64,000 nucleotides of DNA from Nostoc sp. FACHB-280 (GTDB lineage Bacteria > Cyanobacteriota > Cyanobacteriia > Cyanobacteriales > Nostocaceae), in assembly GCF_014697615.1 (NCBI RefSeq), contig NZ_JACJSD010000021.1:1-64000 (forward strand), read 5' to 3'. Under the pieces are notes generated by a model that was not told the origin of the DNA, searched no databases, and worked only from the letters and a program-made list of their open reading frames with translations. This document shows positions 3-15,552 of the stretch, one piece after another. A program made the position numbers and the translations under genes. Position 1 is the first letter of the stretch. Each line of letters opens with the position of its first letter.

Positions 3-2690
3 TTAGATAGCGATAATTCTGCTTCTCCTCAACCAGAGATAGTAGAAAATGACTATTCACGAACTGAGATAAATGAACAAGCGATCGCACCTTCTCATAC
101 TGGTACAGAATCAAACATTATTCAACCGAAAATAGATAGCGATAATTCTGCTTCTTCTCAACCAGAGATAGTAGAAAATGACTATTCACGAACTGAGATA
201 AATGAACAAGCGATCGTACCTTCTAATAATGCTACAGAACCAAATATTATTCAAGCAAAAATAAATCACAGTGATTCTGGGTCTACTCAACCAAAGATAG
301 AAGAAAGTGAAAACTCACGAACTGCGTTAAGTGAAAAAGCGATCGTACCTTCTAATAATGCTACAGAACCAAGTATTATTCAAGCAAAAATAAATAACAG
401 TAATTCTGGTTCTACTCAACCAAAAATAGCAGAACTTGACCACTCGCTAAGTGTGTCAAATGAAGAAGCGATCGCAGCAAAAACAGACAGTGCTAATTCT
501 GCGTCTCCTCAAACAGAAATACCAGAACTTGACCATTCACTAACTGAGTTAAGTGAAAAAGCCATCACACCTTCTAATACTTTTACAGCATCAACAGTTA
601 TTCAAACAAAAACAGATAGTGATAATTCTGCGTCTCCTCAAACAGAGATAGTAGAAATTGACTATTCACGAACTGAGTTAAACCCAACACCGATCGCAGC
701 ATCTAAAACTGGTACACCATCAAATATTATTCAACCAAAATTAGATAGTGATAATTCTGCTTCTCATCAAACAGAGATGGTAGAAATCGAACATTCTCAA
801 ACTACTTCAAATGAAAAGGCAATTTTACCACATAATCTTGTTACACAATCACCAGGTATTCAAGCCAAAATTGGCAATGATTCTGTCTATCATCAATCAG
901 ATAAAGTAGAAATTGAACATTTACAAACTAAGTTAAAACAACCAGCGATTGCACCATCTAATATTGATACACAATCAGTGATTATTCAATCAAAAATCAA
1001 GAGTGATAATTCTGTTTATCATCAACCAGAGATAGTAGAAACTGACGACTCACACATTGAGTTAAGTGAAGCAGCGATCGCACTACCTAATACTGCTACA
1101 AAATCAGACATTATTCAACCAAAAATAGATAGTAATAATTCTGTCTCTCCTCAACCAGAGGTAGTTGAAATTGACAACTCACAAACTGCGTTAAATGAAG
1201 AAGCGATCGCACCTTCTCATACTGCTACAGAATCAAACATTATTCAACCGAAAACAGCTAGTAATAATTATGCTTCTCCTCAACCAGAGATAGTAGAAAT
1301 TGACCACTCACGAACTGAGTTAAATAAAAAAGCGATCGCACCTTCTAATGGTGTGTTAAGTGAAAAAGCGATCATACCTTCTAATACTGGTACAACATCA
1401 CCAATTATTCAAGCAAAAATAGATAGTGATAATTCCGCTTTTCCTCAACCAAATAGTCAGGAAGCGATCGCACTATCTAATACTGGTATACAACCAAACA
1501 TTATTCAAGCAAATTTAGGTAGTAGTAATTCTGTTTATCCTCAACCAGAGATAGTAGAAATTGACTACTCACGAAATGAGTTAAATGAAAAAGCGATCGC
1601 ACCTTCCAATACTGGTACAGAATCAGAAATTATTCAATCGAAATTAGATAGCGATGATTCTGTCTCTCCTCAACCAAAGATGGTAGAAACTGACGAATCA
1701 CACACTGCGTTAAATAAAAAAGCGATCATACCTTCTAATGGTGTTACAGAATCACCAGTTATTCAACCAAAATTAGATAGTAATAGTTCTGCTTCTTCTC
1801 AACCAGCGATAGTAGAAATTGACCACTCACGAACTGAGTTCAATGAAAAAGCGATCGCACCACCTAACAAAGTTACAGAATCAGATATTATTCAACCAAA
1901 ATTAGATAGTAATAGTTCTGCTTCTTCTCAACCAGCGATAGTAGAAATTGACCACTCACGAACTGAGTTCAATGAAAAAGCGATCTCACCACCTAACAAG
2001 GTTACAGAATCAGAGATTATTCAAGCAAAATTAGATAGTAATAGTTCTGCTTCTTCTCAACCAGAGGTAACAGAAATTGACAACTCACGAACTGCGTTAA
2101 GTGAAAAAGCGATCGTACCTTTCAACAATGCTAAAGAATCATTAATTATTCAAGCAAAATTAGATAGTGATAATTCTGCTTCTTCTCAACCAGAGATATT
2201 AGAAACTGACCATTCACGAACTGAGTTCAATGAAAAAGCGATCGCACCTTCTAATACTGATACAGAATCAGATATTATTCAAGCAAAAATAGATAGTGAT
2301 AATTCTGCTTATTCTCAACCAGATATAGTAGAAATTGACCACTCACAAACTGCATTAAATGAAAAAGCGATCGCACCTTTCAATACTGCTACAGAATCAC
2401 CAGTTATTCAACCAAAATTATATAGTGATCATTCTGTCTCTTCTCAACCAGAGATAGCAGAAATTGATCATTCACTCACTGAGTTAAACGAAAAAGCGAT
2501 CGCACCTTTCAATACTGCTACAGAATCACTAATTATTCAACCAAAAACAGATAGTGATAATTCGATATCTTCTCAATCAGTTGTCGAGGAAATTGAACAC
2601 TCACTAACTGCATCAAATCAAAAACAGATTGCACCTGCAAATACTAGTACAGATTCAGAAATTATTCAGCCAAAAATAGATAGTAACTTA
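3..2690 (+). repeat. Coding minisatellite, 129-bp unit, about 20 copies
   Basis: The unit is exactly 129 bp (43 codons): the same segment starts at 1771, 1900 and 2029, and these three copies are nearly identical in DNA. Other copies are diverged. Most units carry GCGATCGC or a one-base variant (for example GCGATCGTA at 207 and 341) at the codons for KAIAP, so the HIP1 octamer recurs at multiples of about 129 bp. Confidence 0.9.
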
Positions 2691-3314
2691 ACAAATGATA
2701 ATCTAAAAATTACATCGGCATCAGCAGAAAATATATTAAGTAAAACAGAAATTTCTCAATTGCCTAAAGCTTTAAAAAATATCTCAATTTTTTCTCCACT
2801 TTCTCAAATATCGAAATCTACATCATCTACGGCAAAGGATAAAACAAATTCACCAAAAGTTACTCAGACTCTTGCTCAATCTCATAATCCTACTTACAAT
2901 ATTCAAAGAAAATTAGCACAAGATATACCAAACTCATGGTCAAATATTGCTGAGTTATTTGATGAAATTCAAGTTAATAGTATTAGTCCACAAACTATTA
3001 TACAAACGCTCAGAGAAAATAACCAATCTTACAATAAGCCAAAAGCTGTAAAACAAATTAGAAGTGTAGGTAATGATTTTCCTAACAATGAAAATTCTAT
3101 GCAATTTATCCAAGCCAGTTATGAAACATTCAACTCAGCCGATTCTGTTCAACAAGATAATAGTAATTCATTAACTAACGAAGATTCTACTTCAGAAGAT
3201 GAATCGAAAAACTTAGATACTCTTGCACACGAAATATACAAGATGCTGAAACAGCGTTTGGATATAGAAAGGGAACGCCGAGGAAATAATTATTCCGGGC
3301 GTTTACCTTGGTAA
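3..3314 (+). CDS. Long tandem-repeat protein, 5' end outside the window
   Basis: The frame is open from base 3 with no stop, so the gene begins before the window; the first in-window ATG (453) lies inside the repeat array and is not the true start. About 900 residues consist of a 43-residue unit whose core reads IIQPKLDSDNSASPQPEIVE followed by ID.SRTELNEKAIAPSNT. The last ~220 residues are not repetitive and end in a charged helix and the tail SGRLPW. The repeats are hydrophilic, Ser/Asn/Glu-rich and likely disordered. I do not recognise the family with confidence. From memory, the IIQ(P/A)K motifs and the C-terminal helix recall cyanobacterial DUF4157-type proteins of contractile-injection clusters, but this is a weak inference. 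Confidence 0.8.
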   Translation, partial: LDSDNSASPQPEIVENDYSRTEINEQAIAPSHTGTESNIIQPKIDSDNSASSQPEIVENDYSRTEINEQAIVPSNNATEPNIIQAKINHSDSGSTQPKIEESENSRTALSEKAIVPSNNATEPSIIQAKINNSNSGSTQPKIAELDHSLSVSNEEAIAAKTDSANSASPQTEIPELDHSLTELSEKAITPSNTFTASTVIQTKTDSDNSASPQTEIVEIDYSRTELNPTPIAASKTGTPSNIIQPKLDSDNSASHQTEMVEIEHSQTTSNEKAILPHNLVTQSPGIQAKIGNDSVYHQSDKVEIEHLQTKLKQPAIAPSNIDTQSVIIQSKIKSDNSVYHQPEIVETDDSHIELSEAAIALPNTATKSDIIQPKIDSNNSVSPQPEVVEIDNSQTALNEEAIAPSHTATESNIIQPKTASNNYASPQPEIVEIDHSRTELNKKAIAPSNGVLSEKAIIPSNTGTTSPIIQAKIDSDNSAFPQPNSQEAIALSNTGIQPNIIQANLGSSNSVYPQPEIVEIDYSRNELNEKAIAPSNTGTESEIIQSKLDSDDSVSPQPKMVETDESHTALNKKAIIPSNGVTESPVIQPKLDSNSSASSQPAIVEIDHSRTEFNEKAIAPPNKVTESDIIQPKLDSNSSASSQPAIVEIDHSRTEFNEKAISPPNKVTESEIIQAKLDSNSSASSQPEVTEIDNSRTALSEKAIVPFNNAKESLIIQAKLDSDNSASSQPEILETDHSRTEFNEKAIAPSNTDTESDIIQAKIDSDNSAYSQPDIVEIDHSQTALNEKAIAPFNTATESPVIQPKLYSDHSVSSQPEIAEIDHSLTELNEKAIAPFNTATESLIIQPKTDSDNSISSQSVVEEIEHSLTASNQKQIAPANTSTDSEIIQPKIDSNLTNDNLKITSASAENILSKTEISQLPKALKNISIFSPLSQISKSTSSTAKDKTNSPKVTQTLAQSHNPTYNIQRKLAQDIPNSWSNIAELFDEIQVNSISPQTIIQTLRENNQSYNKPKAVKQIRSVGNDFPNNENSMQFIQASYETFNSADSVQQDNSNSLTNEDSTSEDESKNLDTLAHEIYKMLKQRLDIERERRGNNYSGRLPW

Positions 3315-3326
3315 ATTTATCTCATA

Positions 3327-4193
3327 TCAGGAATCAATGTTTAATTCATAATGCTGACAAAGAGTTTTGAGTTTTTGCTTGAGGCGATCGCGCATCGGTT
3401 CAGGTGAGATAATTACACATTCATCCCAATAGCGTGCAACTTCCCGAATTAGCCAAAACTCGTTGACAACCCGCCGCACTACCTGACGCACATCTCCAAT
3501 GATTTCATCTTCTAAGTCATCTTCTCTAAGCTGATAAGATTTTACCATCCAACCTCTAAAGTGTAAGTACACTTTTATGTAATCTAATCCCTCTTCTCGC
3601 CAATCACCGCTTGCGGGTACAATTGAACGGATTCTATCGAAGGTTAAATTACGGTTGTGCCAAAGTTCTGGCAAATCTGGAATCAAATTTTCTACATCCT
3701 CTGTTTCTTCACACCAAATCATCAAATAAAAGCGTCTATCAAAGAAGCGTGGTTCTGCGTAACGTACTGTATACAGTAGCTCTAGCCCTTGAGAATTTTC
3801 ATAAAGCAGGTGAAAGGGCTGTTGATTTTGCCTGTATTCATTTATTCGCTCTTGCCATGCTTGCAAAAGTTTACTAGCCTGCTTCAATAAAGACTGGCGG
3901 ATTGCTGGATCTAAATTTCCACGTTCTATCAAAAGTGCAATTACAGTTTGAGCTTCACCAATGCGACCAGCATCACTGAGGGCTTTGATGGCTTGTTGTA
4001 AGGCATTCGCTTGATTAGAGTCTAGCGTGAAAGGCTTTCCGAGTTCTACGGATTGTTGAGCGATCGCTACTATTAAGCCAGAAATACTAGGGTCTTTACC
4101 CCAATATATGTTGAGATTGCGAGCGATCGCTTCTAGTTTTTCCTTGGTTCCAGGCGGAATTGACAGTGTAATCGTTTCTTTTTTTCTCGGCAT
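3327..4193 (-). CDS. WYL-domain transcriptional regulator of the type I-D CRISPR locus
   Basis: A 288-residue protein transcribed away from the cas operon. The N-terminus (KKETITLSIPPGTKEKLEAI) looks like a ribbon-helix-helix or similar DNA-binding element. Residues ~130-280 resemble a WYL ligand/nucleotide-binding domain (YTVRYAEPRFFDRRFYLMIW onward). Related WYL proteins (Sll7009 type) sit beside type I-D loci in cyanobacteria and regulate them; that is family knowledge. I place the start at the ATG at 4193; the TTG two codons upstream is less likely. Its own promoter would lie in 4194-4360. The 16-bp palindrome at 4491-4506 is a possible operator, which is inference. Confidence 0.85.
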   Translation of the reverse strand: MPRKKETITLSIPPGTKEKLEAIARNLNIYWGKDPSISGLIVAIAQQSVELGKPFTLDSNQANALQQAIKALSDAGRIGEAQTVIALLIERGNLDPAIRQSLLKQASKLLQAWQERINEYRQNQQPFHLLYENSQGLELLYTVRYAEPRFFDRRFYLMIWCEETEDVENLIPDLPELWHNRNLTFDRIRSIVPASGDWREEGLDYIKVYLHFRGWMVKSYQLREDDLEDEIIGDVRQVVRRVVNEFWLIREVARYWDECVIISPEPMRDRLKQKLKTLCQHYELNIDS

Positions 4194-4364
4194 TCTCAAA
4201 AATGTACTTGCACTTTTAAAAGATTTGTGCCATATTGTTATTTGTAATTGTAAATCAGGATTTTACTCTAAAGTGCATAGACACAGCCAAAGTAACGATA
4301 CTTATCACATGAAACTGTATTGACATTTCTGTGATGCTCTATCAATTTAGTTGTCGAAAACATG

Positions 4365-4389
4365 AAAAAAGCCAGAGTAAATCTCTGGC
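4365..4389 (-). terminator. Rho-independent terminator of the crRNA-like RNA
   Basis: On the minus strand GCCAGAG, loop ATTTA, CTCTGGC is followed directly by six T. There is no T-run on the plus strand, so it is oriented to stop transcripts coming from the cas side, right after pseudo-repeat 2. Confidence 0.75.
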
Positions 4390-4489
4390 TGATCATCCCT
4401 GATAGGGATTAGTTGATGAAAATAAACCAACCCCTATGTATATATGTCACTATTTGCAATCCCTGTTAGGGATTAAGCAATTTTTGGGG
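4365..4489 (-). ncRNA. Predicted crRNA-like regulatory RNA (degenerate repeat-spacer-repeat)
   Basis: Read on the minus strand, pseudo-repeat 1 (4489 to 4453) keeps the stem AATCCCTA..AGGGATT and a handle ATTGCAAA, against ATTGAAAC in the array. The pseudo-spacer begins at 4452. Pseudo-repeat 2 (4425 to 4389) keeps TCAAcTAATCCCTATcAGGG but has lost the handle. A hairpin plus T-run ends the unit. The repeat orientation matches minus-strand transcription. The pseudo-spacer start TAGTGACATATATACATAG matches TAGTGTCATATAAACATTG at 4563-4545 (minus strand), which is preceded by GTT. CreA/CreR-type RNAs that guide Cascade to its own promoter have this layout; that function here is inference. The 5' end is approximate. 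Confidence 0.72.
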
Positions 4490-4490
4490 C

Positions 4491-4506
4491 GTTATACAAG
4501 TATAAC
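4491..4506. promoter_or_regulatory. 16-bp palindrome with divergent -10-like boxes
   Basis: GTTATAC-AA-GTATAAC is a perfect inverted repeat (7-bp arms). It contains TATACA/TATAAC on the plus strand and TATACT/TATAAC on the minus strand. It lies just upstream of the predicted crRNA-like RNA (minus) and about 50 bp upstream of the first cas-operon gene (plus). It could be overlapping divergent promoters, a WYL operator, or both. No convincing -35 box was found. Confidence 0.45.
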
Positions 4507-4539
4507 CCAAGATGACCCCAAACTGGAGGTTGGAAAATA

Positions 4540-4566
4540 AACATCAATGTTTATATGACACTAAAC
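4540..4566 (-). promoter_or_regulatory. Predicted protospacer of the crRNA-like RNA, with GTT PAM
   Basis: On the minus strand GTT (4566-4564) is followed by a 24-nt stretch matching the pseudo-spacer at 19 positions. Positions 1-5 are perfect, and mismatches fall at 6, 13, 18, 20 and 21. Type I effectors tolerate mismatches at every sixth position, and type I-D uses a GTN/GTH PAM (family knowledge). The site covers the ATG at 4555, so binding would block the start of the operon. Confidence 0.68.
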
Positions 4567-4800
4567 AAAAAAAATAAGCCTATACTTAGAGCAGGTAGAT
4601 TTCGTTCAATCTGCAAAAGGCTATGGGTTATGAACTACTCAGTGGAATATATCGCTCACAAGATTGCTGAATGTCTGGTTCTGATTGACAAATATCAACG
4701 TGAAATCTGTCGATTAAGAAAGGTAATCGCAGATTTGAAATGTCAACCAGTAACTAACGACGAAGGCGAAGTTATAAGTTATAACGACTTTGAAAGCTAA
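4555..4800 (+). CDS. Small basic protein of unknown function, first gene of the cas operon
   Basis: An 81-residue protein, 23 bp upstream of cas10d and in the same direction. The N-terminal half is rich in Lys/Arg (NKKNKP, RAGRFRSICKRLW). Residues ~30-63 form a probable amphipathic helix (EYIAHKIAECLVLIDKYQRE). I do not recognise the family. A shorter product could start at Met26. The ATG lies inside the predicted protospacer, with no clear Shine-Dalgarno sequence. It may be a leader gene of the operon, a small Cas accessory protein, or, by analogy with CreTA modules, something toxic that the effector represses. None of these is shown. Confidence 0.55.
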   Translation: MTLNKKNKPILRAGRFRSICKRLWVMNYSVEYIAHKIAECLVLIDKYQREICRLRKVIADLKCQPVTNDEGEVISYNDFES

Positions 4801-4823
4801 ATCTAGGTAGCAGTTAGCATTAT

Positions 4824-7517
4824 ATGATCAAGCGCAATAGGCTTTTAAACCGCCCTCCCAAAAGCCTGGAGGAGCGTTATTTCAGCGAAATCCGCCCCCA
4901 GCTATACGAAAATCACGCACATCATGATCAGTATGGGGTTAGGAAGGGAACAACCCTTGCAGAACATCTTGACTCCGCGTGTCAATTTATTTTGACAGTC
5001 AGTCAAATAGCAGGAGTAGCAGAAGATAAAAGACCTTTGCTATTAGCTGCGACGGCTGTTCATGACCTGAATAAATTAGATCCTCAAGAACGAAAAGTAA
5101 AAACTCTGGCTAGAGACAAGGACTTTTTAAGAGAACAGCTAGAAAAAGCTTGTGTATTAACTTTCGTGCAGACAGACGATGATTTTGAGTTAGTCAGAAA
5201 GCTAATTGAACGTCATTCTGGTCATAATGTCAGCGATGGAGCAAGATTTCTACCAGAAGATCCGAATATTGAACGTTGGGCGGCGATGCTGACTGCTGCT
5301 GACTTGTTTGATTTGGGTATTCCCGATGAAAAACGCTTTCGCAAACTGGAAACAGAATTAACCGTTGCTTTTGATAGAAGTTGCAAACTTTTCAGAGTAG
5401 GCCTTTCTGAAGATAAAGGTTATATTACAGCTTTATTACTGGGTGCGTGCGAAGAAGTTTTACAAAAGCATGGCTTACATTGTTTAGCTATCTTCCCTGA
5501 TGGGGCATTATTTGAAGGCGAAGTTTTACCAAATGCAGATTTAACAAAAGAGATAGCTGCTGTTTGGCAAAGTAAAATTAACCAAGTTTTTGGTAATAAC
5601 ATAGAAAGACTTGTCAGACCTACAAAAGATGGTATTAAAGTTACTCAACAAGCTATCCAGCAAAATATTGATGAAGTGCTGGTAAATATAGAGGCTCTTT
5701 TAGAGAAGAAAAAAGCTGGTTATAAATCAGACAAGATTGCTAAAGATGTAACTAAGTGGGGTGAGGCTGCTGGTGCAGAAGCAATAAAACAAGCGGCTGA
5801 ACTTGGTTTAATTCCCGTAAGTAATGACGAAGAATTTGCTATATCAGAAGGATTAAAAGCTGCTTATTTGAGCTACCGTGAGGCTGGATTAAGCCCTAAA
5901 GAAGTTTGGGATAAAATTGCTCATCATACTGGTATTTCTGAACATCAGCGCAGTGCAATTGAGCCATTGAATGGCCAATATGGACGACCTTTATTTGCTG
6001 CTAAGGCTGCTGTTAAAGGAATTGAGGGTATTAAAGAAGCTTTAAAAGAATCTTTCCAGTTAAGACAAACAAGTACACAAACCTCAGAGGAAGTAGAAAT
6101 ATCTGAGGAAATGGTTGCAGCCGTTAACAGAATGGTAAATTTACCTTTTGCTATTCAGTTAAATGGAGTCAATGATTTAAATGCTTATATAGAAGCTAAT
6201 CCTAAACAAAGATGCTCTTTAGGTTATACATCTACTGATATAGATGAGCTAATTTCAGATAATATGCCTCCTGGGACAAAAGTACAAGCTTTTTCTAACC
6301 GCTTACCAGGTGGGATTAGTGCAGAACCTAAAAGACAAGCAGATTCAATTGCAGCTTTAGCTTATCAATTGATTACGGTTGGTGCAAATTTTCCGGCTGT
6401 TAAAAAACAAGATCCACTTTATTTACATTTCTCATTACCTAAAGGTTCTACACCAGAATTATTAAGGATTTGGCGTGAACTTCTGCAACAAATTGCTGCA
6501 ACAAATGGTGAGGGTGGCACTGTCACCGTTGATGAATTGAAACTATATCGAGATAACAATCTTGAATTTAAAGCCAATAAAGTAGTTGGTGCAGCATTAC
6601 CTAAACGTCCAGATTTTGTACATACAACAGTTATTATTCCTTTAGTTTGGGGAGATATTAATGCTTCGTTAGCTCTACTAAAATCGCTGAGACTAGGTTT
6701 AGAAATATCCTTATCTTTAGATATTGGCTTTCCCTTTACTCTGAGTAGCAACTTAGAAGTTGAGTTATTTGATGATGTTTATGGACGAGTAGAGGGAATA
6801 CCTGCTGCACTACAAACTTTGCTCGGAAGTGGACAATATCAGCAGAGTGGAGATGCAGAAAAAATTCTAGAGAGACTGCGCTGCATTGGCGAATTAGCAA
6901 TAACTGTTGCGAGTATTCAAAAAGCTGATGATTGTTTATATGATTTGGCGCGTGCTTGCGTTAGACCAATTGAAATTTATTTTGTTTTGCTACGTTGGAT
7001 TTTACGAGAACAAGATGAACCAAATATAAGCATGATTTGGAGTCGGATTTGTGAGCCACTAAATACTTTATTGGAGAGCTTTATGCCAAATGAAAATTCG
7101 TTATTAACCAAGTATCTCAAAGAAGCTGCTCAAATTGCAGCAGAAGGAAAAATTTGGGGTAGTTCTTTTAAGAGAACTGCTCAAACAGAACCTTTCACAG
7201 CTTTTATAGCTGCAATTCGTTCTCAAAAATCTCATTTAGATTTAGAGATTATTTTCGCTGCTTTAGTACAGCAATATCATACTCGATTAGACCGTATTCG
7301 TGAACACGGTGTAGGTGCAACAAAGTTAGAACAAGTCAAGCGTTACTACGATGTTTTGCGAAAGCTATATGAGGAGATTTATTCAGCACGTCCTGAGAAG
7401 TTATTATCTGACCAAAAAACTTTAGAAGCTGCTTATTTATTCTTTCTTGAAGATGCACGTAAGCAACAAAAAAGCCAATCTGAAGATAATTCAAGCGAAA
7501 CAACTACAACTGTGTAA
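4824..7517 (+). CDS. cas10d: Type I-D CRISPR large subunit with HD nuclease, Cas10d (Csc3)
   Basis: 897 residues, the size expected for Csc3. The N-terminal HD domain shows H48 (AEHLD), H80-D81 (AVHDLNK), H131/H134 (ERHSGHN) and D160 (LTAADLFD). In subtype I-D the HD nuclease is on Cas10d rather than on Cas3, which agrees with the HD-less helicase four genes down. The middle and C-terminal parts should hold the degenerate polymerase-like palm and the helical region of the effector; I see no GGDD motif, as is usual for Cas10d. The gene ends 17 bp before csc2, whose ribosome-binding site AGGAG lies in the gap. Confidence 0.96.
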   Translation: MIKRNRLLNRPPKSLEERYFSEIRPQLYENHAHHDQYGVRKGTTLAEHLDSACQFILTVSQIAGVAEDKRPLLLAATAVHDLNKLDPQERKVKTLARDKDFLREQLEKACVLTFVQTDDDFELVRKLIERHSGHNVSDGARFLPEDPNIERWAAMLTAADLFDLGIPDEKRFRKLETELTVAFDRSCKLFRVGLSEDKGYITALLLGACEEVLQKHGLHCLAIFPDGALFEGEVLPNADLTKEIAAVWQSKINQVFGNNIERLVRPTKDGIKVTQQAIQQNIDEVLVNIEALLEKKKAGYKSDKIAKDVTKWGEAAGAEAIKQAAELGLIPVSNDEEFAISEGLKAAYLSYREAGLSPKEVWDKIAHHTGISEHQRSAIEPLNGQYGRPLFAAKAAVKGIEGIKEALKESFQLRQTSTQTSEEVEISEEMVAAVNRMVNLPFAIQLNGVNDLNAYIEANPKQRCSLGYTSTDIDELISDNMPPGTKVQAFSNRLPGGISAEPKRQADSIAALAYQLITVGANFPAVKKQDPLYLHFSLPKGSTPELLRIWRELLQQIAATNGEGGTVTVDELKLYRDNNLEFKANKVVGAALPKRPDFVHTTVIIPLVWGDINASLALLKSLRLGLEISLSLDIGFPFTLSSNLEVELFDDVYGRVEGIPAALQTLLGSGQYQQSGDAEKILERLRCIGELAITVASIQKADDCLYDLARACVRPIEIYFVLLRWILREQDEPNISMIWSRICEPLNTLLESFMPNENSLLTKYLKEAAQIAAEGKIWGSSFKRTAQTEPFTAFIAAIRSQKSHLDLEIIFAALVQQYHTRLDRIREHGVGATKLEQVKRYYDVLRKLYEEIYSARPEKLLSDQKTLEAAYLFFLEDARKQQKSQSEDNSSETTTTV

Positions 7518-7534: not shown

Positions 7535-8554
7535 ATGTCAATTCAAAAGCTTTCCTCAGTTCTTGCAACTACTTATGAGAATTTCCCAAAAGGGCGTTTT
7601 GTTACCTTAGTTGTTTTAAGAACAACTCATTCTGAAACTATCTTTCGCACAGAAGGTTCTGGTGAACCGATGTGTAGTGAGTTTGTGCAAGCTGGTGTTA
7701 CTAATGACAATATTATTCAACGTTTGGTAATGACTAAGCGTAAACAAATAGCACCGGAAAGACGCTACGGAAGAGAACATTTAAGAGCGCACGAGCTTTT
7801 ATACACTAATATTAAAGATGGTTCTCTGTGTTCGTTAAATACTAATTCACCATGCGAAATGTGTGTAGATTGTTTTCTCTACGGTTTCGCTGCTGGTGGA
7901 GGTGGCGCACAAAAAAGCCGCATTTGGACTGAAGATGCTTTTAGTATTTTACCTGCTAGTGATGTTGTAGGCGATCGCACTATTAACGCCATCTATGAAA
8001 ATGGCACAATGCGCGATGAAAAAGGTAATGCTTCCACCGCTTTAAATACTAGCGAATATATCAAACCAGGTGTACATTTTCTTGATGTTGTCACTTTAAA
8101 AGATGTCACGGCTGATGAACTGCGATACATCATCGGTAATATTCTGTTCACCAGTCGCTATGGTGCAGTTTCCAGCCGTGTGGGACGTATGGAAAACCAA
8201 ATATTAGGCATATTTGGCAGTATTACAGAACTTCCTAGTTCTTTGGAACTTGTGCAAGCTACATACGATGTTTTAGGTAAGCCTTTAGAACACCCTCTGA
8301 ATACTAACCAATTAATTACAGCCAGTAGACAAGTAATAGCTAATTGGCAAAACAAGAGAGGCGTATCTGTGTATTTATCTGAAGCAGAATTAGCAAACTT
8401 AATTACTGATGTAGAAACTCATTGGTCAGAAGCAGAACGTGATAATTTCCTGAAACGTTTAAGCCAATCTTATGAACCTTTCCGCCAAGTTGCGGCTGAG
8501 AAGAAAAAAGCTAAAGGTAAAGGCAAAAATACACCAGTTGAAGTAGAGAGTTAG
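7535..8554 (+). CDS. csc2: Type I-D backbone subunit Cas7d (Csc2)
   Basis: 339 residues. This subunit forms the helical backbone that wraps the crRNA spacer in the I-D effector. A cysteine cluster C99, C107, C110, C113 (SPCEMCVDC) is the zinc-binding knuckle typical of Csc2, followed by the glycine run GFAAGGGG. The C-terminus is lysine-rich (EKKKAKGKGK), suited to nucleic-acid contact. AGGAG lies about 8 bp before the ATG, and csc1 follows after 3 bp, so the genes are translationally close. Confidence 0.96.
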   Translation: MSIQKLSSVLATTYENFPKGRFVTLVVLRTTHSETIFRTEGSGEPMCSEFVQAGVTNDNIIQRLVMTKRKQIAPERRYGREHLRAHELLYTNIKDGSLCSLNTNSPCEMCVDCFLYGFAAGGGGAQKSRIWTEDAFSILPASDVVGDRTINAIYENGTMRDEKGNASTALNTSEYIKPGVHFLDVVTLKDVTADELRYIIGNILFTSRYGAVSSRVGRMENQILGIFGSITELPSSLELVQATYDVLGKPLEHPLNTNQLITASRQVIANWQNKRGVSVYLSEAELANLITDVETHWSEAERDNFLKRLSQSYEPFRQVAAEKKKAKGKGKNTPVEVES

Positions 8555-8557
8555 ATT

Positions 8558-9316
8558 ATGTCAACAATTCCTTTTCAGCAGGCAAAACTTGTTGAATTAC
8601 ACTGTCTTGAACCAGTCTTTTTTGCCTCTAGGGAGTTGTCTGATACCTATTACACTGAGGGGTTAATTGGGAATTATGCTCTTACCTATGCTTTAGGTTT
8701 AGTTAATTCCCCCTATCGCCTCCAAGGTCAGGCTACAGGACGACCAACCTACAAAGAAGATTTACAACCAATAGCACAGAATGTTTATATTTTACCAGCT
8801 TCACCTATAGGTAGAGTAACATTCAGATTTGAACGTTTCAATGCTCTTTCTGATGCTTATTGGTATGCAATGACTAATAACCGAGTTGCTACGGCGCGAG
8901 AAGATTTACCGTTACAACGCCAAGGGAAAAAACCAAATTCATTTCGACCAAGTAATTTCCCGCAAACTGGAAGACTGCGAATGATTGAACGAGGGAATAA
9001 ATTCCAAACTTTGGTATTTGGAAATCTTCAATTACCTGCTTATATTCGTCTTGGTAAATTCATGAGTAAAGTCAAAGTAAATGTACTCAATGAATTACCA
9101 GTAACTTTACTACCAGAAGGTGAATATCAAACGCAACATTATCTAAATGTTGCTGATATACCACAGCAAATAGAGACATTAGCTTTCGATTTAATTTCTA
9201 TTCCTCCTGCACCTATTATTAAAAATCTGCGTTTTCGCGGTGCTGCTTGGCAGGTTGGAGAAATGATTGTACCAGCAGGATTACATTTTTGCGGTAGAGC
9301 AAGTAGCAATGAGTAA
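8558..9316 (+). CDS. csc1: Type I-D effector subunit Cas5d (Csc1)
   Basis: 252 residues, the usual length of Csc1. In the I-D effector this Cas5-like protein caps the 5' handle end of the crRNA. The N-terminus (VELHCLEPVFFASRELSDTY) and the following YTEGLIGNYALTYALG are typical of the family. The stop overlaps the start of the helicase gene by 8 bp (ATGAGTAA), indicating coupled translation within the cas operon. Confidence 0.94.
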   Translation: MSTIPFQQAKLVELHCLEPVFFASRELSDTYYTEGLIGNYALTYALGLVNSPYRLQGQATGRPTYKEDLQPIAQNVYILPASPIGRVTFRFERFNALSDAYWYAMTNNRVATAREDLPLQRQGKKPNSFRPSNFPQTGRLRMIERGNKFQTLVFGNLQLPAYIRLGKFMSKVKVNVLNELPVTLLPEGEYQTQHYLNVADIPQQIETLAFDLISIPPAPIIKNLRFRGAAWQVGEMIVPAGLHFCGRASSNE

Positions 9317-11585
9317 TCAAAAATTAGTTATCAGGTTAGAACCTCGTAGTATTTCAGCTTGTGCATCACCAGATAAAATATCTTTTATTAGTAATGCACT
9401 TCAACATCAAATAGATGTATTTGAGCAATCTAAGGATGCTGACATTATCCTGGATTTAGCACCAACTGGCACAGGTAAAACTAAAGCTGGATTAGCAGTA
9501 TTAAAACATCAGCCTAATAAAAGTGCTGTTTATATTGCTCCAACTAATGCTTTAATTGAACAACAAACAGAAGCAGCAAAACAGTTTGTACGAGATGCTA
9601 ATTTACCTCATGTTGTGAAAGCGGCTTCAGCTAAAGATGTGAAAAACTGGACTAACGATAAAGTTGGCAGACGTTCAGGAGAAAAACTATATAATATTTT
9701 GCGAAATCCGGCGACAGTTTTTGATGATGTGGGAGCAAATACACCAATTATCTTAGTGACAAATCCTGATACTTTCTACTATGCAACTTTCTTTGCATAT
9801 AACAAGCTAGATAGAGGAAATATTGCTGCTGGCTTTTACACAAAATTTTCTACAGTCATTTTTGATGAGTTTCATCTCTACGATGCGAAACAGCTTGTAG
9901 GATTACTGTTTTATCTTGCCTATTCTCATGTTTTTCGCTTTTTTCAAAATGGACGCAAGGTTGTATTACTGACAGCAACACCAGAGTCAGCTTGTGAATT
10001 AGCATTGAAAAATTTAAAACAGGCTGGTGTGAAAATAGCAATAATTAATGGAGAATCAGGTAATACCAATCTGTTGCCATCACAAACAGCAGTTAATTTA
10101 GAATTAAGACCAAAACCAGAAAGTAAAGAAGATTGGTTAGCAGAATTAGCAGCAGAAGTTGTAAATCGTTTCCGAGAAAGACCAAGTGAAAATGGTGCTG
10201 TAATTTTAGATTCTCTCGATAATATTAATCGTCTATCAGATTTGCTGCGACAGCAAGGACTCGGTGATGATATAGGACGGATAACTGGCCCTGCACCTAA
10301 AAAAGATAGACAAAGGGCTATGCAGCGTCAAATAATTTTAGCAACTAGCACTGTAGATGTCGGATTTAACTTTGAAAGACATCCTCAACCGACGCGACAA
10401 AATTTAGATTGGTTGATTTTTTCAGCACGCGATCGCGCCGCATTTTGGCAGAGAATTGGTAGAGTTGGGCGTGTTTTAGGTAAATCTGAAACTAACATTG
10501 ATTCAGAGGCTATTGCTTACTTACCTGCTGATGCTTGGAAGGAAGGTTTAATTAATCTTGATACTACTGGAGGACGTACAGCATTGAAAGAAATGCTGGA
10601 TAACCTTTCCTGTTTGGATAAACCTTTTTTAACAGCTTACTGGCGTTCAGAAGCTTCTCTAGAAATTGCGCGTCCTTTGTTAGAACTGGAAGAAGTATTT
10701 GAAAATTTACCAGATGCAGAATTAATTCCCAAACTGTTTAATACTTTAAAATCTGTTTTGGATACTAAACGTAGTTGGGAAGATTATCGGCATAGAATGA
10801 AAGTTTTACGAGGTGCGGAAAACATTGCTAAAGAATCTTTGGATAAGTTAAAGACAGGCTGGAAATTTCTTAAAGGTGGTCAAGCTTTTGTCAAAACTTT
10901 TATCAAGGTAACATCCCCTGAAGAGTGGGATGATTTACAAGCTGGACGCACGAAATTAGACGCATACGAGAAGGTTTTTAAAGAACATAATGATTTAGTG
11001 GCTGACCTAAAAGAATTTGCTGAGGTTTTTAGTACAAGCTATGCACCATTATTTAGTTTTCGTTACAGTTTGTTTGAAAGTCTTCCCATTCGTGACCCTT
11101 ATAATTTAGTCACAGATGAATCTGAAGAAACTCAATTAGATCCCTTTCATCTGTTGCGCTATTACGAATTTGCTCAAAATGGTGATTTAATCGAAATCAA
11201 AAGTCGTGCTACTGAAACCTATAAACTGAGTTTTAGAATGCGCTATTGTGGTAGCCGACAGGAGTTTGCTAGTACAGAGATAAATAAGTTAACGGCTTTT
11301 AAAAATTGTACCGTTGTCCGCAGTATTGGCGAAGCAATACGACCTACACCTGAATTACAAGCATTATCAAAACATCTGTTACCAGGAGTTATTATTTGTC
11401 CTCGAACTAATGCTACTGCTCTTTTTCAATTACGAAAACAAGGAATTGTTTCTTATCCTATAAATATTGTTGGTCATGATGGTGAAAGACTATACGAGTT
11501 TCTAGCAGGCTTATCAGGAATTTTAACAATGGCTATGAAGTATAAACAGCTACGTCTCCCAGATGATGAAGTTTTTATTGCGTGA
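9309..11585 (+). CDS. cas3: CRISPR-associated helicase Cas3 (Cas3d, no HD domain)
   Basis: 758 residues from the ATG at 9309, which overlaps the csc1 stop; an upstream in-frame start at 9267 would lie deep inside csc1 and is less likely. It is a superfamily 2 helicase: Walker A APTGTGKT (51-58), DEFH box (186-189), motif III TATP (222-225) and motif VI QRIGRVGR. In type I-D it unwinds target DNA, while cleavage is by the HD domain of Cas10d. The protein starts directly with the helicase domain and lacks an HD nuclease, as expected for this subtype. Confidence 0.95.
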   Translation: MSNQKLVIRLEPRSISACASPDKISFISNALQHQIDVFEQSKDADIILDLAPTGTGKTKAGLAVLKHQPNKSAVYIAPTNALIEQQTEAAKQFVRDANLPHVVKAASAKDVKNWTNDKVGRRSGEKLYNILRNPATVFDDVGANTPIILVTNPDTFYYATFFAYNKLDRGNIAAGFYTKFSTVIFDEFHLYDAKQLVGLLFYLAYSHVFRFFQNGRKVVLLTATPESACELALKNLKQAGVKIAIINGESGNTNLLPSQTAVNLELRPKPESKEDWLAELAAEVVNRFRERPSENGAVILDSLDNINRLSDLLRQQGLGDDIGRITGPAPKKDRQRAMQRQIILATSTVDVGFNFERHPQPTRQNLDWLIFSARDRAAFWQRIGRVGRVLGKSETNIDSEAIAYLPADAWKEGLINLDTTGGRTALKEMLDNLSCLDKPFLTAYWRSEASLEIARPLLELEEVFENLPDAELIPKLFNTLKSVLDTKRSWEDYRHRMKVLRGAENIAKESLDKLKTGWKFLKGGQAFVKTFIKVTSPEEWDDLQAGRTKLDAYEKVFKEHNDLVADLKEFAEVFSTSYAPLFSFRYSLFESLPIRDPYNLVTDESEETQLDPFHLLRYYEFAQNGDLIEIKSRATETYKLSFRMRYCGSRQEFASTEINKLTAFKNCTVVRSIGEAIRPTPELQALSKHLLPGVIICPRTNATALFQLRKQGIVSYPINIVGHDGERLYEFLAGLSGILTMAMKYKQLRLPDDEVFIA

Positions 11586-11664: not shown

Positions 11665-12276
11665 GTGAAACACTACCAACAACAACCAAACGCCTTCCCC
11701 AGCGAATACCTCAATAACTTGTGGGGAGAAATTCACGCTTGTCCTTATTTTGCTGTCAACAACCTCAACCGCGATTTTGTCGGTACTAAGGGATTTTCTG
11801 TAGTGTTTAGGCGATCGCACATCTCCACAGTAGAGCAAAAATTCCCCTATTTCAAACCTTACCTCGATTTAGCTCTCCAGCCTAACTGTAACGCTTTTTA
11901 CCTCAACCCCTTACTCCTCAAAGAAGGTTCTCGCGTCGATCCGCATATAGATCGTTCTCTGCGTTCCTACTGCAAAACCGTTGAACCGCCTACCTTTGTT
12001 AGCGTTCTCTATGTGCGTATACCAGAAAATATGGAAGGTGGTGAACTGGTACTCAAATCACACAAACGCCAACTCGGACAAATTAAGCCGCAGATGAATA
12101 CGTTACTTTACTTTCAAGGTGATTTGACTCATTCTGTCAATGCTGTGAAAACTTCTGGAAGTCGCCTCAGTTTAGTGTGCGAACAGTATACTTTAAGCGA
12201 TGCTGAACTCGTAGACATACCAGAGTTTACAGTAGAGTCTAGAGTTGCTCAAAATACAACAAAGAAACGCAAGTAA
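11665..12276 (+). CDS. 2-oxoglutarate/Fe(II)-dependent oxygenase embedded in the cas operon
   Basis: 203 residues starting at GTG. The double-stranded beta-helix signature of Fe(II)/2-oxoglutarate dioxygenases is complete: H94-x-D96 (DPHIDRS), distal H156 (DLTHSVN) and R167 eleven residues later (SGSRLSL) for the 2-oxoglutarate carboxylate. YFQGDLTH and VLYVRIPENMEGGEL are typical of the prolyl-4-hydroxylase/PKHD-like branch. It lies between cas3 and cas6 in the same direction, 79 bp and 26 bp from them. It is not a core Cas protein. The substrate is unknown and could be protein, nucleic acid or a small molecule. Family assignment is firm; a CRISPR role is inference from position. Confidence 0.85.
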   Translation: MKHYQQQPNAFPSEYLNNLWGEIHACPYFAVNNLNRDFVGTKGFSVVFRRSHISTVEQKFPYFKPYLDLALQPNCNAFYLNPLLLKEGSRVDPHIDRSLRSYCKTVEPPTFVSVLYVRIPENMEGGELVLKSHKRQLGQIKPQMNTLLYFQGDLTHSVNAVKTSGSRLSLVCEQYTLSDAELVDIPEFTVESRVAQNTTKKRK

Positions 12277-12302: not shown

Positions 12303-13139
12303 ATGCCGCACAGCCTAGTTCTTAACCTACTACCTCAGTCGCCGATTCCATCGCAATATCTCACCGGGAGACATTTACACGCTTTATTTTTAACCCTGGT
12401 TAGTTCTGTAGATCGCACATTAGGCGATCGCTTACATGATTCTACCGCAGACAAAGCCTTTACCCTCTCTCCTCTCCAAATTAGTAATGCTAATTCCCCC
12501 CTTTTGAAGGCGGGTAAGGGGGGATCTAAACTGCGCTGGGAACATCAACAAGCAATTTCCGCCGGAACTCCCTGCTGGTGGCGCGTTTCCTTGTTAGATG
12601 ACACCCTATTTAGTCAACTAACGCAACTATGGCTAAATCTCAATCCTAGTCACCCTTGGCATCTTGGCCCGGCTGACTTGTATATTACCAGCATTCAAGG
12701 CACACCCCAATCAACGCAACCTTGGGCAAATGCTTGCACCTACACTCAATTGTATGAGGAAGCCAGTGATAGCGATCGCTCTCTTAATTTGAGCTTTGCC
12801 ACACCTACCGCCTTCCGTCAAGGACATTTCGATACTACCCTTCCTACCAGAGAATGTGTTTTTAATTCCCTACTTTCGCGGTGGAATAAATATAGTGGAA
12901 TAGAATTATCTGGAATTTCTCTGGAGTCAATATTTCCTTCTTTTATTAATATCCACACAGAAATATTAGCCGACTCCCGCAGTAAATTTATTGGCGTTAT
13001 TGGTGAAATTAATTATCGCATATTAGGCGAAGCTGAACCAATTCAAATTAAACAACTTAACACCTTGGCTAACTTTGCTTTATATGCAGGTGTGGGACGG
13101 AAAACAACAATGGGAATGGGGATGGTAAGAAGGTTATAG
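12303..13139 (+). CDS. cas6: CRISPR pre-crRNA endoribonuclease Cas6
   Basis: 278 residues. The N-terminal ferredoxin fold begins SLVLNLLPQSPIPSQYLTGR with H24/H26 in the position of the family's candidate catalytic histidine. The C-terminus has the glycine-rich loop (YAGVGRKTTMGMGM) shared by Cas6 proteins. It cuts the repeat at the base of the stem to leave the 8-nt 5' handle. Residues ~64-77 (NSPLLKAGKGGSKL) are encoded by a palindromic repeat that has entered the gene in frame. Confidence 0.93.
   Translation: MPHSLVLNLLPQSPIPSQYLTGRHLHALFLTLVSSVDRTLGDRLHDSTADKAFTLSPLQISNANSPLLKAGKGGSKLRWEHQQAISAGTPCWWRVSLLDDTLFSQLTQLWLNLNPSHPWHLGPADLYITSIQGTPQSTQPWANACTYTQLYEEASDSDRSLNLSFATPTAFRQGHFDTTLPTRECVFNSLLSRWNKYSGIELSGISLESIFPSFINIHTEILADSRSKFIGVIGEINYRILGEAEPIQIKQLNTLANFALYAGVGRKTTMGMGMVRRL
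12495..12524. repeat. Palindromic element inserted in frame in cas6
   Basis: TCCCCCCTT (12495-12503) pairs with AAGGGGGGA (12516-12524) around a 12-base loop. This C6/G6 palindrome is unlike the surrounding cas6 codons and resembles dispersed cyanobacterial repeats. It encodes NSPLLKAGKGGSKL without breaking the frame. Confidence 0.6.
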
Positions 13140-13215: not shown

Positions 13216-13431
13216 GAGATAGCTGAAGGTCACGGACGCAGTAGTAGCAAACATGATTATGCTCATTTTCTTGCAATATCTAAAGGCTCATTAATGGAAA
13301 CAAAAACTTTATTGATGTTAACAATAAAGCTCAATTATCTTTCTTCTGAAGAAGCTAATTCAACATTATCTTTGATTACAGAAATCAGCAAAATGCTCAC
13401 CACTCTTCGCCACCGTATATTAAAAAGCTAA
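13216..13431 (+). pseudogene. Truncated four-helix-bundle (S23-type) protein gene
   Basis: The frame from 13216 reads EIAEGHGRSS then YAHFLAISKGSLMETKTLL and ends ILKS. This matches the C-terminal ~70 residues of the four-helix-bundle family (usual length ~115-120; consensus IAEGYGR, RFL.IA.GSL.E). There is no ATG, GTG or TTG between the upstream in-frame TAG (13165) and this segment, so the N-terminal two helices are gone and repeat DNA stands in their place. Its stop codon shares bases with the cas4 start (TAATG). It is probably a remnant whose reading frame may still affect cas4 translation. Confidence 0.7.
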
Positions 13432-14093
13432 TGAATAATCAAAACATCACTAATATTCTTTCATCTGAAACCTCCAATCTGTCACCTGTCACCTATCACC
13501 TGTCACCTGATGAATATATTCCGATCGCAGCATTAAATCAATATGCCTACTGTTCGCATCGCTGCTGGCGGATGTTTTGTGCGGGGGAATTTGTTGACAA
13601 CCAATACACAATTGAAGGTACGACATTACACGATCGCGTCCATACTGTAGGAGAAGGACAACGTGAAGAAATTTGGCAGATACGAGCCATTTGGTTGAAG
13701 TCTGATCAGTACAAGCTGATTGGCAAAGCAGATTTAATTGAATTAGAAAATGGCGAATACTATCCCATCGAATATAAACGTGGACGCAAAGGTGAATGGG
13801 ATAACGATGAATTACAAGTTTGCGCTCAAGCTTTGTGTTTAGAAGAAATGACGGGTAAATCTATCAACACTGGCTATATTTATTATGCCCATTCCCACCA
13901 ACGCCAATTAGTGGAGATTTCTGAAGAGTTAAGGCAAAGTGCGATCGCCACAATTGAAGCTGTGCAAATGCTATTATTTACAGGCGCAATGCCTAAAGCT
14001 ATCAAAACAAAACGCTGTGATGGATGCAGTTTATCTCCTCAATGTTTGCCTCAAACTGCTGACAAAGTAAAACGTTATCAGGAAGCAGCATAA
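13431..14093 (+). CDS. cas4: CRISPR adaptation nuclease Cas4
   Basis: 220 residues. RecB-type nuclease core D101 (GKADLIE), E114-x-K116 (PIEYKRG) and Q129. The Fe-S cluster cysteines are C41 (YCSHRCW) and C196, C199, C205 (CDGCSLSPQC). Cas4 trims prespacers and helps select PAM during spacer acquisition with Cas1-Cas2. The family usually begins near YIPIAALNQY (residue 29). The first ~28 residues here include SPVTYHLSP encoded by a TCACCTG-type repeat, so they are an acquired extension. No later in-frame ATG is well placed, so I keep the ATG at 13431. Confidence 0.93.
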   Translation: MNNQNITNILSSETSNLSPVTYHLSPDEYIPIAALNQYAYCSHRCWRMFCAGEFVDNQYTIEGTTLHDRVHTVGEGQREEIWQIRAIWLKSDQYKLIGKADLIELENGEYYPIEYKRGRKGEWDNDELQVCAQALCLEEMTGKSINTGYIYYAHSHQRQLVEISEELRQSAIATIEAVQMLLFTGAMPKAIKTKRCDGCSLSPQCLPQTADKVKRYQEAA

Positions 14094-14128
14094 ATAATTT
14101 GGTGTTGCTGAGAATATTTTTGAAAAGC

Positions 14129-14157
14129 TCACGCAAAGGCGCAAAGGCGCAAAGAAG
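14129..14157. repeat. Short dispersed repeat between cas4 and cas1
   Basis: CACGCAAAGGCGCAAAGGCGCAAAG-type sequence, two tandem GGCGCAAA units. The same family recurs at 40893-40919 (CACAGAGGCGCAGAGGACACAGAG form). Apart from this, 14094-14214 holds only the ribosome-binding site AAAGGAAA for cas1. Confidence 0.6.
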
Positions 14158-14214
14158 AAGAGATACATTAATCTGCGTTACAAAAATAAGCTCTCTTAAA
14201 TAAAGGAAACAATC

Positions 14215-15219
14215 ATGGGTACAGTTTACATTTCCCAGGAAGATGCTTTCATTGGCAAAATTGATGAACGTCTTAGCGTCAAGTTTGAGAAAAAGATAAT
14301 TTTAGATGTCCCACTCATCAAAATAGAAGGTGTAGTAGTTTTAGGACGTGCTACTGTTTCGCCGGCTGTGATTTCGGAACTTTTAGAACGCAGTATTCCT
14401 CTCACATTCCTCACGGAAAATGGTCGTTATTTAGGACGCATAGAACCAGAGGTGACTAAAAATATATTTGTTAGGAAAGCTCAATGGCAAGCCGCCGGAG
14501 AATCACCCCAAGCAATTCATGTTGTACAAGGATTTGTGCGTGGTAAATTGAAAAATTATCGCCAAATTCTTACCCGTCGTCAGCGCGAATCTTCAGATAT
14601 AGATTTATCTAAAAAGATAACCCAATTGGAACAAGCGATCGCACCAATCGACACCACACACAATATCAACTCACTGCGCGGTTTAGAAGGTGCGGGTAGT
14701 GCAGCTTATTTTGGTTGTTTTAATCAACTAATTCGCAATGCAGAATTTCAATTTTCTCACCGCCTACGCCGTCCGCCAACAGATCCGGTAAATTCTTTAC
14801 TCAGTTTTGGTTACTCGTTATTACGTCATGATGTGCAGGGGGCGATTAATATAGTTGGTTTTGATCCATATTTAGGATATCTGCATTGCGATCGCTATGG
14901 TAGACCTTCTCTCGCATTAGACTTAATGGAGGAATTTCGCCCCCTGGTGGTAGACGCGGTTGTGTTATCTACCTTAAACAAGCAACTGCTAACACCCGCA
15001 GATTTTATCACCGAACCCTTAAGCGGTGCAGTTTCCCTCACACCAGAAGGACGCAAAACATTCTTGCGCTTATACGCACAGAAAAAACAATCGGAATTTA
15101 AGCATCCGGTTATGGGGCGCAAATGCACTTATCAAGAAGCCTTTGAACTCCAAGCGCGACTGTTAGCGAAATACCTCATGGGTGAAACGGAGAAGTATCC
15201 GCCATTGGTTTTGAAATAG
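14215..15219 (+). CDS. cas1: CRISPR integrase Cas1
   Basis: 334 residues, the usual length for type I Cas1. The N-terminal beta domain (GTVYISQEDAFIGKIDERLS) is followed by the all-alpha catalytic domain. Metal-binding residues are E158 (RGLEGAGS), H224 (YLHCDRYGR) and the D236/E239 segment (LDLMEEFRP). With Cas2 it inserts new spacers at the leader end of the array. It is preceded by AAAGGAAA and followed after 42 bp by cas2, with a short heptamer repeat in the gap. Confidence 0.97.
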   Translation: MGTVYISQEDAFIGKIDERLSVKFEKKIILDVPLIKIEGVVVLGRATVSPAVISELLERSIPLTFLTENGRYLGRIEPEVTKNIFVRKAQWQAAGESPQAIHVVQGFVRGKLKNYRQILTRRQRESSDIDLSKKITQLEQAIAPIDTTHNINSLRGLEGAGSAAYFGCFNQLIRNAEFQFSHRLRRPPTDPVNSLLSFGYSLLRHDVQGAINIVGFDPYLGYLHCDRYGRPSLALDLMEEFRPLVVDAVVLSTLNKQLLTPADFITEPLSGAVSLTPEGRKTFLRLYAQKKQSEFKHPVMGRKCTYQEAFELQARLLAKYLMGETEKYPPLVLK

Positions 15220-15261
15220 GTGACAGGTGAGAGGTTACAGGTGACAGAGGGAGATGTTTGA

Positions 15262-15552
15262 GTGAAAGACGAATTAAAAAAGAAAGTGGTTGTATCTTAC
15301 GATGTTCCAGAAGATAAACGCCGTACCAAAATCCATAAAATTTTAAAGTCTTATGGACAGTGGGTGCAGTACAGTGTGTTTGAGTGCCAGTTGACTGAGA
15401 CTCAATATGCCAAATTGCGATCGCGTTTGCACAAACTCATTAAACCAGATACCGACAGCATCCGCTTTTACTTTCTCTGCGCCTGCTGTTTTGATAAAAT
15501 CGAACGCATCGGTGGCGAACAACCCCGCGACGAAAGCATTTTCTTTGCCTAA
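15262..15552 (+). CDS. cas2: CRISPR adaptation protein Cas2
   Basis: 96 residues with a GTG start preceded by GAGGGAG. Ferredoxin-like fold: first strand VVVSYDV with the conserved Asp, then DKRRTKIHKILKSYG and QYSVFECQLT. It forms the structural core of the Cas1-Cas2 integrase. The C-terminus RDESIFFA ends at the leader; the array follows 226 bp downstream in the same direction. Confidence 0.96.
   Translation: MKDELKKKVVVSYDVPEDKRRTKIHKILKSYGQWVQYSVFECQLTETQYAKLRSRLHKLIKPDTDSIRFYFLCACCFDKIERIGGEQPRDESIFFA

Follow-up and report, generated by a model that had tools for sequence, protein, structure and literature searches.

The window, that is, the whole stretch of 64,000 nucleotides that was analysed, carries on its plus strand cas genes of type I-D, encoding Cas10d, Csc2, Csc1 and a separate Cas3′. 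The operon opens with a small gene of 56 amino acids (MNYSVEYIAHKIAEC...; 4630 to 4800, starting at ATG 4630), which has no family in NCBIfam or Pfam. It is followed by cas10d (4824 to 7517; PADLOC Cas10_Id, 1785 bits), cas7d or csc2 (7535 to 8554; NCBIfam TIGR03157), cas5d or csc1 (8558 to 9316; TIGR03159), cas3′ of type I-D (9267 to 11585, start codon uncertain; TIGR03158), cas6 (12303 to 13139; NCBIfam and PADLOC) and cas4, cas1d and cas2 (13431 to 15552; NCBIfam). The Cas10d of the window has no match in NCBIfam and none among solved structures at 0.001, and its identity is settled by the PADLOC match. The CRISPR array on the same strand (15779 to 16552) consists of 11 repeats of 37 nt, all exact copies of GTTGAAATTTCAATTAATCCCTATTAGGGATTGAAAC; the 3′ 22 nt of this repeat are matched with at most three mismatches at 209 places in the genome (59 forward, 150 reverse). 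A gene for a WYL/WCX-type regulator (3327 to 4199, minus strand; WCX just under the cut-off, WYL 31 bits) diverges from the operon. By eye, the 56-amino-acid product is conserved and coiled-coil-like. An open reading frame resembling 2OG-Fe(II) oxygenases is located between cas3′ and cas6 (11665 to 12276), and one of 953 amino acids at 453 to 3314 consists mostly of 43-residue repeats (a 129-bp tandem repeat in about 17 copies).

Between the divergent regulator gene and the cas operon, the minus strand from 4504 to 4365 contains, in this order, a promoter-like box, a degenerate repeat that carries a crRNA handle, a pseudo-spacer, another degenerate repeat and a terminator. The box, a -10-like TATACT (4499 to 4504), precedes the guide start by 46 nt. 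Pseudo-repeat 1 (TTGCTTAATCCCTAACAGGGATTGCAAA, 4453 to 4480) has a stem-loop and the handle ATTGCAAA at 4453 to 4460, identical to ATTGAAAC in 6 of 8 positions. The pseudo-spacer occupies 4411 to 4452, guide positions 1 to 16 being 4452 to 4437, and is followed by pseudo-repeat 2 (AATCCCTATCAGGGAT, 4395 to 4410) and by an intrinsic-terminator-like hairpin, GCCAGAG/CTCTGGC plus T6 (4365 to 4389). The original prediction had described a minus-strand degenerate repeat-spacer-repeat closed by a hairpin and T6, in which the first pseudo-repeat keeps the crRNA handle and the second keeps the stem and loses the handle; all of this is present at 4480 to 4365, and the element itself is confirmed as observed. 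It lies outside the array and adjoins the cas operon, as do the CreR RNAs discussed below. The guide start and the stem of pseudo-repeat 2 are 42 nt apart, as against 49 to 56 nt for the equivalent distance in the array (spacers of 34 to 41 nt and 15 nt of repeat), which makes the pseudo-spacer a short one. In the predicted minimum-energy fold of the window's RNA, pseudo-repeat 2 pairs with the pseudo-spacer, which counts against the interpretation favoured below. This pairing covers 4437 to 4402 of the minus strand, from guide position 16 as far as the 5′ arm of pseudo-repeat 2, and begins at the point where the match between guide and target stops; it could set the end of the guide or mask the Cas6 stem. 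Two Rfam matches, far under the gathering score, were taken as chance.

The guide finds its target in the promoter region of the cas operon. Directly after a GTT, 19 of 24 nucleotides match minus-strand 4563 to 4540, with mismatches at guide positions 6, 13, 18, 20 and 21, exactly as the original prediction had counted them; over positions 1 to 16 (4548 to 4563, minus strand) 14 match, the mismatches being 6 and 13. The GTT (4564 to 4566, minus strand) agrees with the GTN PAM of type I-D and with the GTT used in binding by type I-D Cascade, as given in the retrieved passages of PMC10212523 and PMC9123187, respectively. When guides were scored over 14 core positions (1-5, 7-11 and 13-16), the best PAM-flanked match in 4200 to 4823 attained 13, a score reached by 3 of 135,370 dinucleotide shuffles of the same region; the 10 spacers of the window's array score 6 to 10 by this measure. 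Within the target, ATGACA (4555 to 4560, plus strand) is probably the -35 box of the cas promoter, whose predicted -10-like box, TATACT, lies at 4581 to 4586, 14 nt past the PAM. Partial complementarity is found together with the PAM of the subtype at the predicted cas promoter, which is the second property of CreR. The original prediction placed the target over the ATG of the first operon gene, and this must be revised: the ATG at 4555 precedes the predicted -10 box. As a start codon it was rejected, since the conserved start is ATG 4630 and ATGACA reads as a -35 box. The -35/-10 spacing is 20 nt in the window and 18 nt in L011, L018 and L108 (L-numbers label the cas10d upstream regions of the survey below), the three loci which share its guide TAGTGACATATA; this too counts against the favoured interpretation. 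L011 belongs to Cylindrospermum sp. NIES-4074 and L018 to Nostoc paludosum FACHB-159. It had also been proposed that the pseudo-spacer arose by duplication of the target, on account of GAAAATAAAC. Both copies are indeed present in the window, but the two sides were not seen together in L011, L018 and L108, and an origin by duplication is unproven.

To place this pair among its relatives, regions upstream of cas10d were gathered by way of Cas10d from 24 named loci, all cyanobacterial by title, and from further genomes, where Cas10d was matched in 58 of 388 genomes of the order, 41 of 217 of the family and 33 of 388 of the class; these sets overlap, and part of the matches was fetched. The 106 regions scanned include two repeats, leaving 104 distinct ones, three of them shorter than 1 kb. 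The scan called for a handle and a GT PAM, with 9 or all 10 of guide positions 1-5 and 7-11 matched, after which matches were sorted by a stem filter or, by eye, for a stem and a second repeat. An element with a PAM-flanked target is present in 27 of the 104 regions, the window included; these loci span 11 taxonomic families and fall into 13 guide families. The remaining 77 regions have no pair, which makes the pair an optional component.

The scan taken alone is noisy, because wrong PAMs and wrong handles also yield loci. The first scan returned 16 loci against 0 to 4 in nine wrong-PAM or wrong-handle controls; the second returned 24 (19 kept, five judged noise) against 5 to 15 with seven wrong PAMs and 3 to 7 with five wrong handles. 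When the spacing and a -10 box were required as well, 24 loci were found, all within the 27, against 1 to 6 with seven wrong PAMs and 0 to 3 with four wrong handles. It is therefore the anatomy and the position profile that carry the claim. The final sorting of real from noise rested on the second repeat and the stem, judged by eye; matches were set aside if they lacked a second degenerate repeat or lay inside arrays, coding repeats or genes. In the second scan this applied to L031, L095, L101, L113 and L119 and to extra matches in L011, L018, L108, L116, L123 and the window, and in the stem-filtered scan to L109, L113, L119, L120, L127 and L169 and to extra matches in L011, L018, L108, L175, L183 and the window. 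Five loci missed by the stem filter (L090, L091, L123, L186 and L187, the last two being L059 and L061 of the second scan) were found in the second scan and kept among the 27. L172, L096 and L116 have two targets each, of which the higher-scoring was used. A relaxed scan with the -10 box added no locus among the regions lacking a strict pair, and a looser one without the box, over 81 regions, gave only weak scattered pairs where no pair was known. In 19 of the 27 loci the element is followed by a terminator-like hairpin, which occurs in 59 of 1080 random stretches. The distance from the -10-like box of the element to the guide downstream of it is 46-49 nt in families A, B, D, J and K and 31-93 nt in families C, E, F, G, H, I, M and N.

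The guide sequences themselves differ widely. Besides TAGTGACATATA, TGTAGWAAAGA is found in seven loci from the window's own taxonomic family (one with TATAG), and further families include AGTGCCGCGATC, AATATCGCAATC, AGCAAGGTGATA, ACGAGTTACTCA, GCTGTCGCCTTC, AAGTGCCACGTT and AAATATGTCTGC. Families A, D, K, M and perhaps G are alike, in part because their targets overlap the TGACA-like -35 box, and for this reason the number of independent origins is 13 at most. Relatives of the 56-amino-acid first gene were recognised by eye in families A, D, J, M and perhaps K. The PAM of the 27 pairs is GTC in 15 and GTT in 12. Every guide attains at least 12 of 14 core positions in its own region (27 of 27), whereas none of 634 guides swapped between families attains 12 (the best reaches 11); nine guides set against 75 regions without an element gave 12 once in 675 comparisons. 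As the loci were picked for a match, the swap test gauges the chance of a target given the guide.

Guide positions 1-5, 7, 8 and 11 match the target in all 27 pairs, position 9 in 24 and position 10 in 22; positions 13 to 16 match in 19, 25, 26 and 22. Position 6 matches in 7 of 27 and position 12 in 10, near background, and beyond position 16 the counts fall to 10 at position 17, 4 at position 18 and 5-15 at positions 19 to 36, where around 7 are expected (background 0.27), so that pairing stops near position 16. Positions 6 and 12 to 18 were not used in finding the pairs; what is seen there, both the gaps (6, 12 and 18) and the matches at 13 to 16, is therefore nearly unbiased, apart from L096, L116 and L172, for which the higher-scoring of two targets was chosen. 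If each family is represented by a single locus, matches at positions 6 and 12 number 7 in 26 cells, as compared with 170 of 182 for the core (Fisher p 1.5e-13); positions 13 to 16 match in 43 of 52 (p 8e-17, background 0.27; 41 of 52, counted by hand, with the other L096 target), and positions 12, 17 and 18 in 4, 3 and 2 of 13, the first as by chance. In type I-D Cascade every sixth base is flipped out, according to the retrieved text of PMC10212523. A type I effector reading an RNA guide would be expected to leave gaps with a period of six; a protein operator or a plain repeat would not.

This profile bears directly on the idea that the two copies are a protein operator, bound by the WYL regulator or the small first gene product, with the likeness to a guide incidental. 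WYL regulators accompany type I-D loci, in the part of PMC10212523 that was retrieved, and one is encoded next door in the window. Yet the shared stretch begins right after the CRISPR handle on one side and right after GTN on the other, the match falls to background at 6, 12 and 18, and the sequence differs between families, all of which makes such an operator highly improbable. The same may be said, at a similar level, of a decoy RNA that would soak up Cas6 or Cascade in the manner of RNA anti-CRISPRs and guide nothing: solitary repeat-like units can act as decoys (PMC10651486), but a PAM-flanked target matched to the spacer would be needless for a decoy.

To the two properties of CreR named above we added a third, that guide and target be conserved or co-vary in relatives, and this is what was found in 27 of the 104 regions. 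The original prediction had counted a seed-target match that fails to persist in relatives among the results that would speak against it; the opposite is seen, as 26 further loci keep the element and a matched target flanked by GTT or GTC. Compensated changes of guide and target occur in four of five homologous groups, at positions 3, 10 and 15 in A/D, 2 in B, 4, 9 and 15 in G and 3 in M. When core positions are tallied over locus pairs as compensated, guide only and target only, the counts are 12, 4 and 4 for A and D, 6, 0 and 28 for B, 5, 1 and 5 for G, 0, 0 and 6 for K and 1, 1 and 0 for M; the counts for B and K indicate that the target drifts at core positions in these two families. At positions 6 and 12 together, 2 changes are compensated and 49 are not. 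L108 and L182 have near-identical DNA at and just before the start of cas10d, yet they belong to guide families A and B. Their sequences suggest that guide element and target move together, as if a regulatory module had been exchanged.

Some loci have lost parts of the system. The guide of L028 is intact and no target was found in its region; in L013 the guide start is altered and again no target was found; L012 and L130 hold remnants only, of the 3′ part of the element. L098, L099 and L102, genus-mates of L100, have no copy of its element. Decay in four loci (L012, L013, L028 and L130) and the degenerate repeats are what an array relic or an accidental self-spacer under no selection would look like, but the match of guide and target has persisted, with partial co-variation, and does not extend to the rest of the pseudo-spacer; conservation contradicts this explanation, to which we give hardly any weight.

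The target also has a fixed place on the promoter. For 23 of 25 minus-strand targets there is a -10-like box 10-14 nt past the PAM, as against 832 of 14,525 random nearby sites (5.7%), and strong boxes accompany 16 of 25, as against 82 of 14,525; the two exceptions are L096 and L178, which have no -10 box at that distance. This arrangement sets the target, with the guide seed, on the -35 region. For targets on the same strand, the distance from guide to target is 85-151 nt in 24 of 25 loci; in L116 the scored target lies at 308 nt and a second one at 109. The targets of L185 and L100 lie on the opposite strand, ahead of a small gene, and in L100 a minus-strand gene separates the target from cas10d. 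Judged by eye, in 26 of the 27 loci the target promoter faces a small or intervening gene and cas10d in the same direction. Behind the target promoter, other loci encode a protein of 62-76 amino acids (MKDNLPDRM... and alike), which by eye we take to resemble a small winged-helix protein and which gave only a sub-threshold Pfam match, for one example.

Genes of toxin-antitoxin type, identified by eye and located on the strand of cas10d, separate it from the target in 11 of the 27 loci (L108, L014, L182, L183, L017, L184, L114, L116, L091, L123 and L096); they are DUF433/DUF5615 (PIN-like; example L014) or nucleotidyltransferase/HepT-like (example L116), families that were checked on one example pair each. 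These genes raise the question of whether the guide serves as a guard in the manner of CreTA or CrePA, repressing something toxic that is encoded at the start of the operon, so that a cell deprived of Cascade would be harmed. The toxic product would be the small ORF or the toxin-antitoxin genes, and repression of cas would be a side effect. The intervening genes of the 11 loci speak for such a guard; against it, inspection by eye showed nothing but a small ORF ahead of cas10d in 15 of the remaining 16 loci, among them the window, the 56-amino-acid ORF of the window has no known domain, and the toxin-type genes bring their own partner. A guard is accordingly an unlikely explanation, though much less so than an operator, a decoy or a relic. 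Slightly more room can be given, still tentatively, to a combined role, in which a swappable guide-target module places cas and the embedded toxin-antitoxin genes (HEPN/nucleotidyltransferase, PIN-like/DUF433) under repression by Cascade, so that an attack on Cascade would boost cas and arm an abortive response.

The interpretation we favour, with a probability of roughly 0.88, is that type I-D Cascade guided by a CreR-like RNA represses its own cas promoter. The element would give rise to a short minus-strand RNA, which Cas6 would cleave after the stem of pseudo-repeat 1 to leave an 8-nt handle; the predicted mature RNA, of about 66 nt with ATTGNAAN at its 5′ end, would be loaded into the type I-D Cascade of Cas10d, Cas7d, Cas5d and Cas6. 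By complementarity over about 16 nt, Cascade would occupy the -35 region at the GTT-flanked site and block transcription of cas. Such short pairing would form no full R-loop and hence would not trigger cutting; pairing of about 16 nt with a correct PAM at a -35 site fits a block of transcription without the R-loop needed for cutting, the mode of action given for CreR and CreA in the passages retrieved. Cascade would in this way repress its own operon, and repression could be lifted when abundant array crRNAs or anti-CRISPR proteins divert Cascade, a response carried over from CreR.

CreR is described, in the retrieved parts of three papers, as a mini-CRISPR RNA partly complementary to its own cas promoter and acting in autorepression (PMC12737573, PMC13131331, PMC12948488). 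It is named there for types I-B, I-E and V-A (PMC13131331) or more broadly for type I and V-A (PMC12737573). The element of the window shares the mini-CRISPR RNA layout and the partial complementarity to the cas promoter, differs in belonging to a cyanobacterial subtype I-D, and is known from sequence; as far as sequence tells, it belongs with CreR and would work like it. A literature search over titles, abstract starts and passages, with the primary CreR paper outside it, found no report of a CreR in type I-D. CreA of CreTA consists of a pseudo-spacer between two degenerate repeats and partly matches a promoter at a PAM-flanked site (PMC9458426, in the passages retrieved), a layout which the window's element shares. 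CreA represses a toxic RNA, whereas here the promoter leads to cas, in some loci by way of toxin-antitoxin-type genes. In CrePA, as outlined in the retrieved text of PMC12737573, the effector and a CreA RNA repress a toxin gene; there is no known toxin at the window's target, and a role of this kind is only a possibility for the 11 loci with toxin-antitoxin-type genes. Auto-repression by SpyCas9 is named as well in the passages retrieved from PMC13131331. Its likeness to the present case is that an effector, with a natural guide RNA, represses its own expression. The effector there is of class 2, and its RNA, named tracr-L, is unrelated to the element of the window. The reading put forward by the original prediction, autorepression of the CreR/CreA kind in subtype I-D, is well supported by the 13 guide families, the compensated changes and the mismatches at positions that would be unread.

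If this reading is true, RNA-guided autorepression of cas genes would extend to I-D, a hybrid subtype between types I and III. The 27 pairs would show, from natural sequences, how a guide is read by a type I effector, probably in binding without cutting: positions 1-5, 7-11 and 13-16 matter and positions 6, 12 and those from 17 on do not. The same loci offer ready-made guide-target pairs for testing. For the organisms that carry the element, it is a possible explanation of why expression of the cas genes could remain low as long as Cascade is neither engaged nor inhibited.
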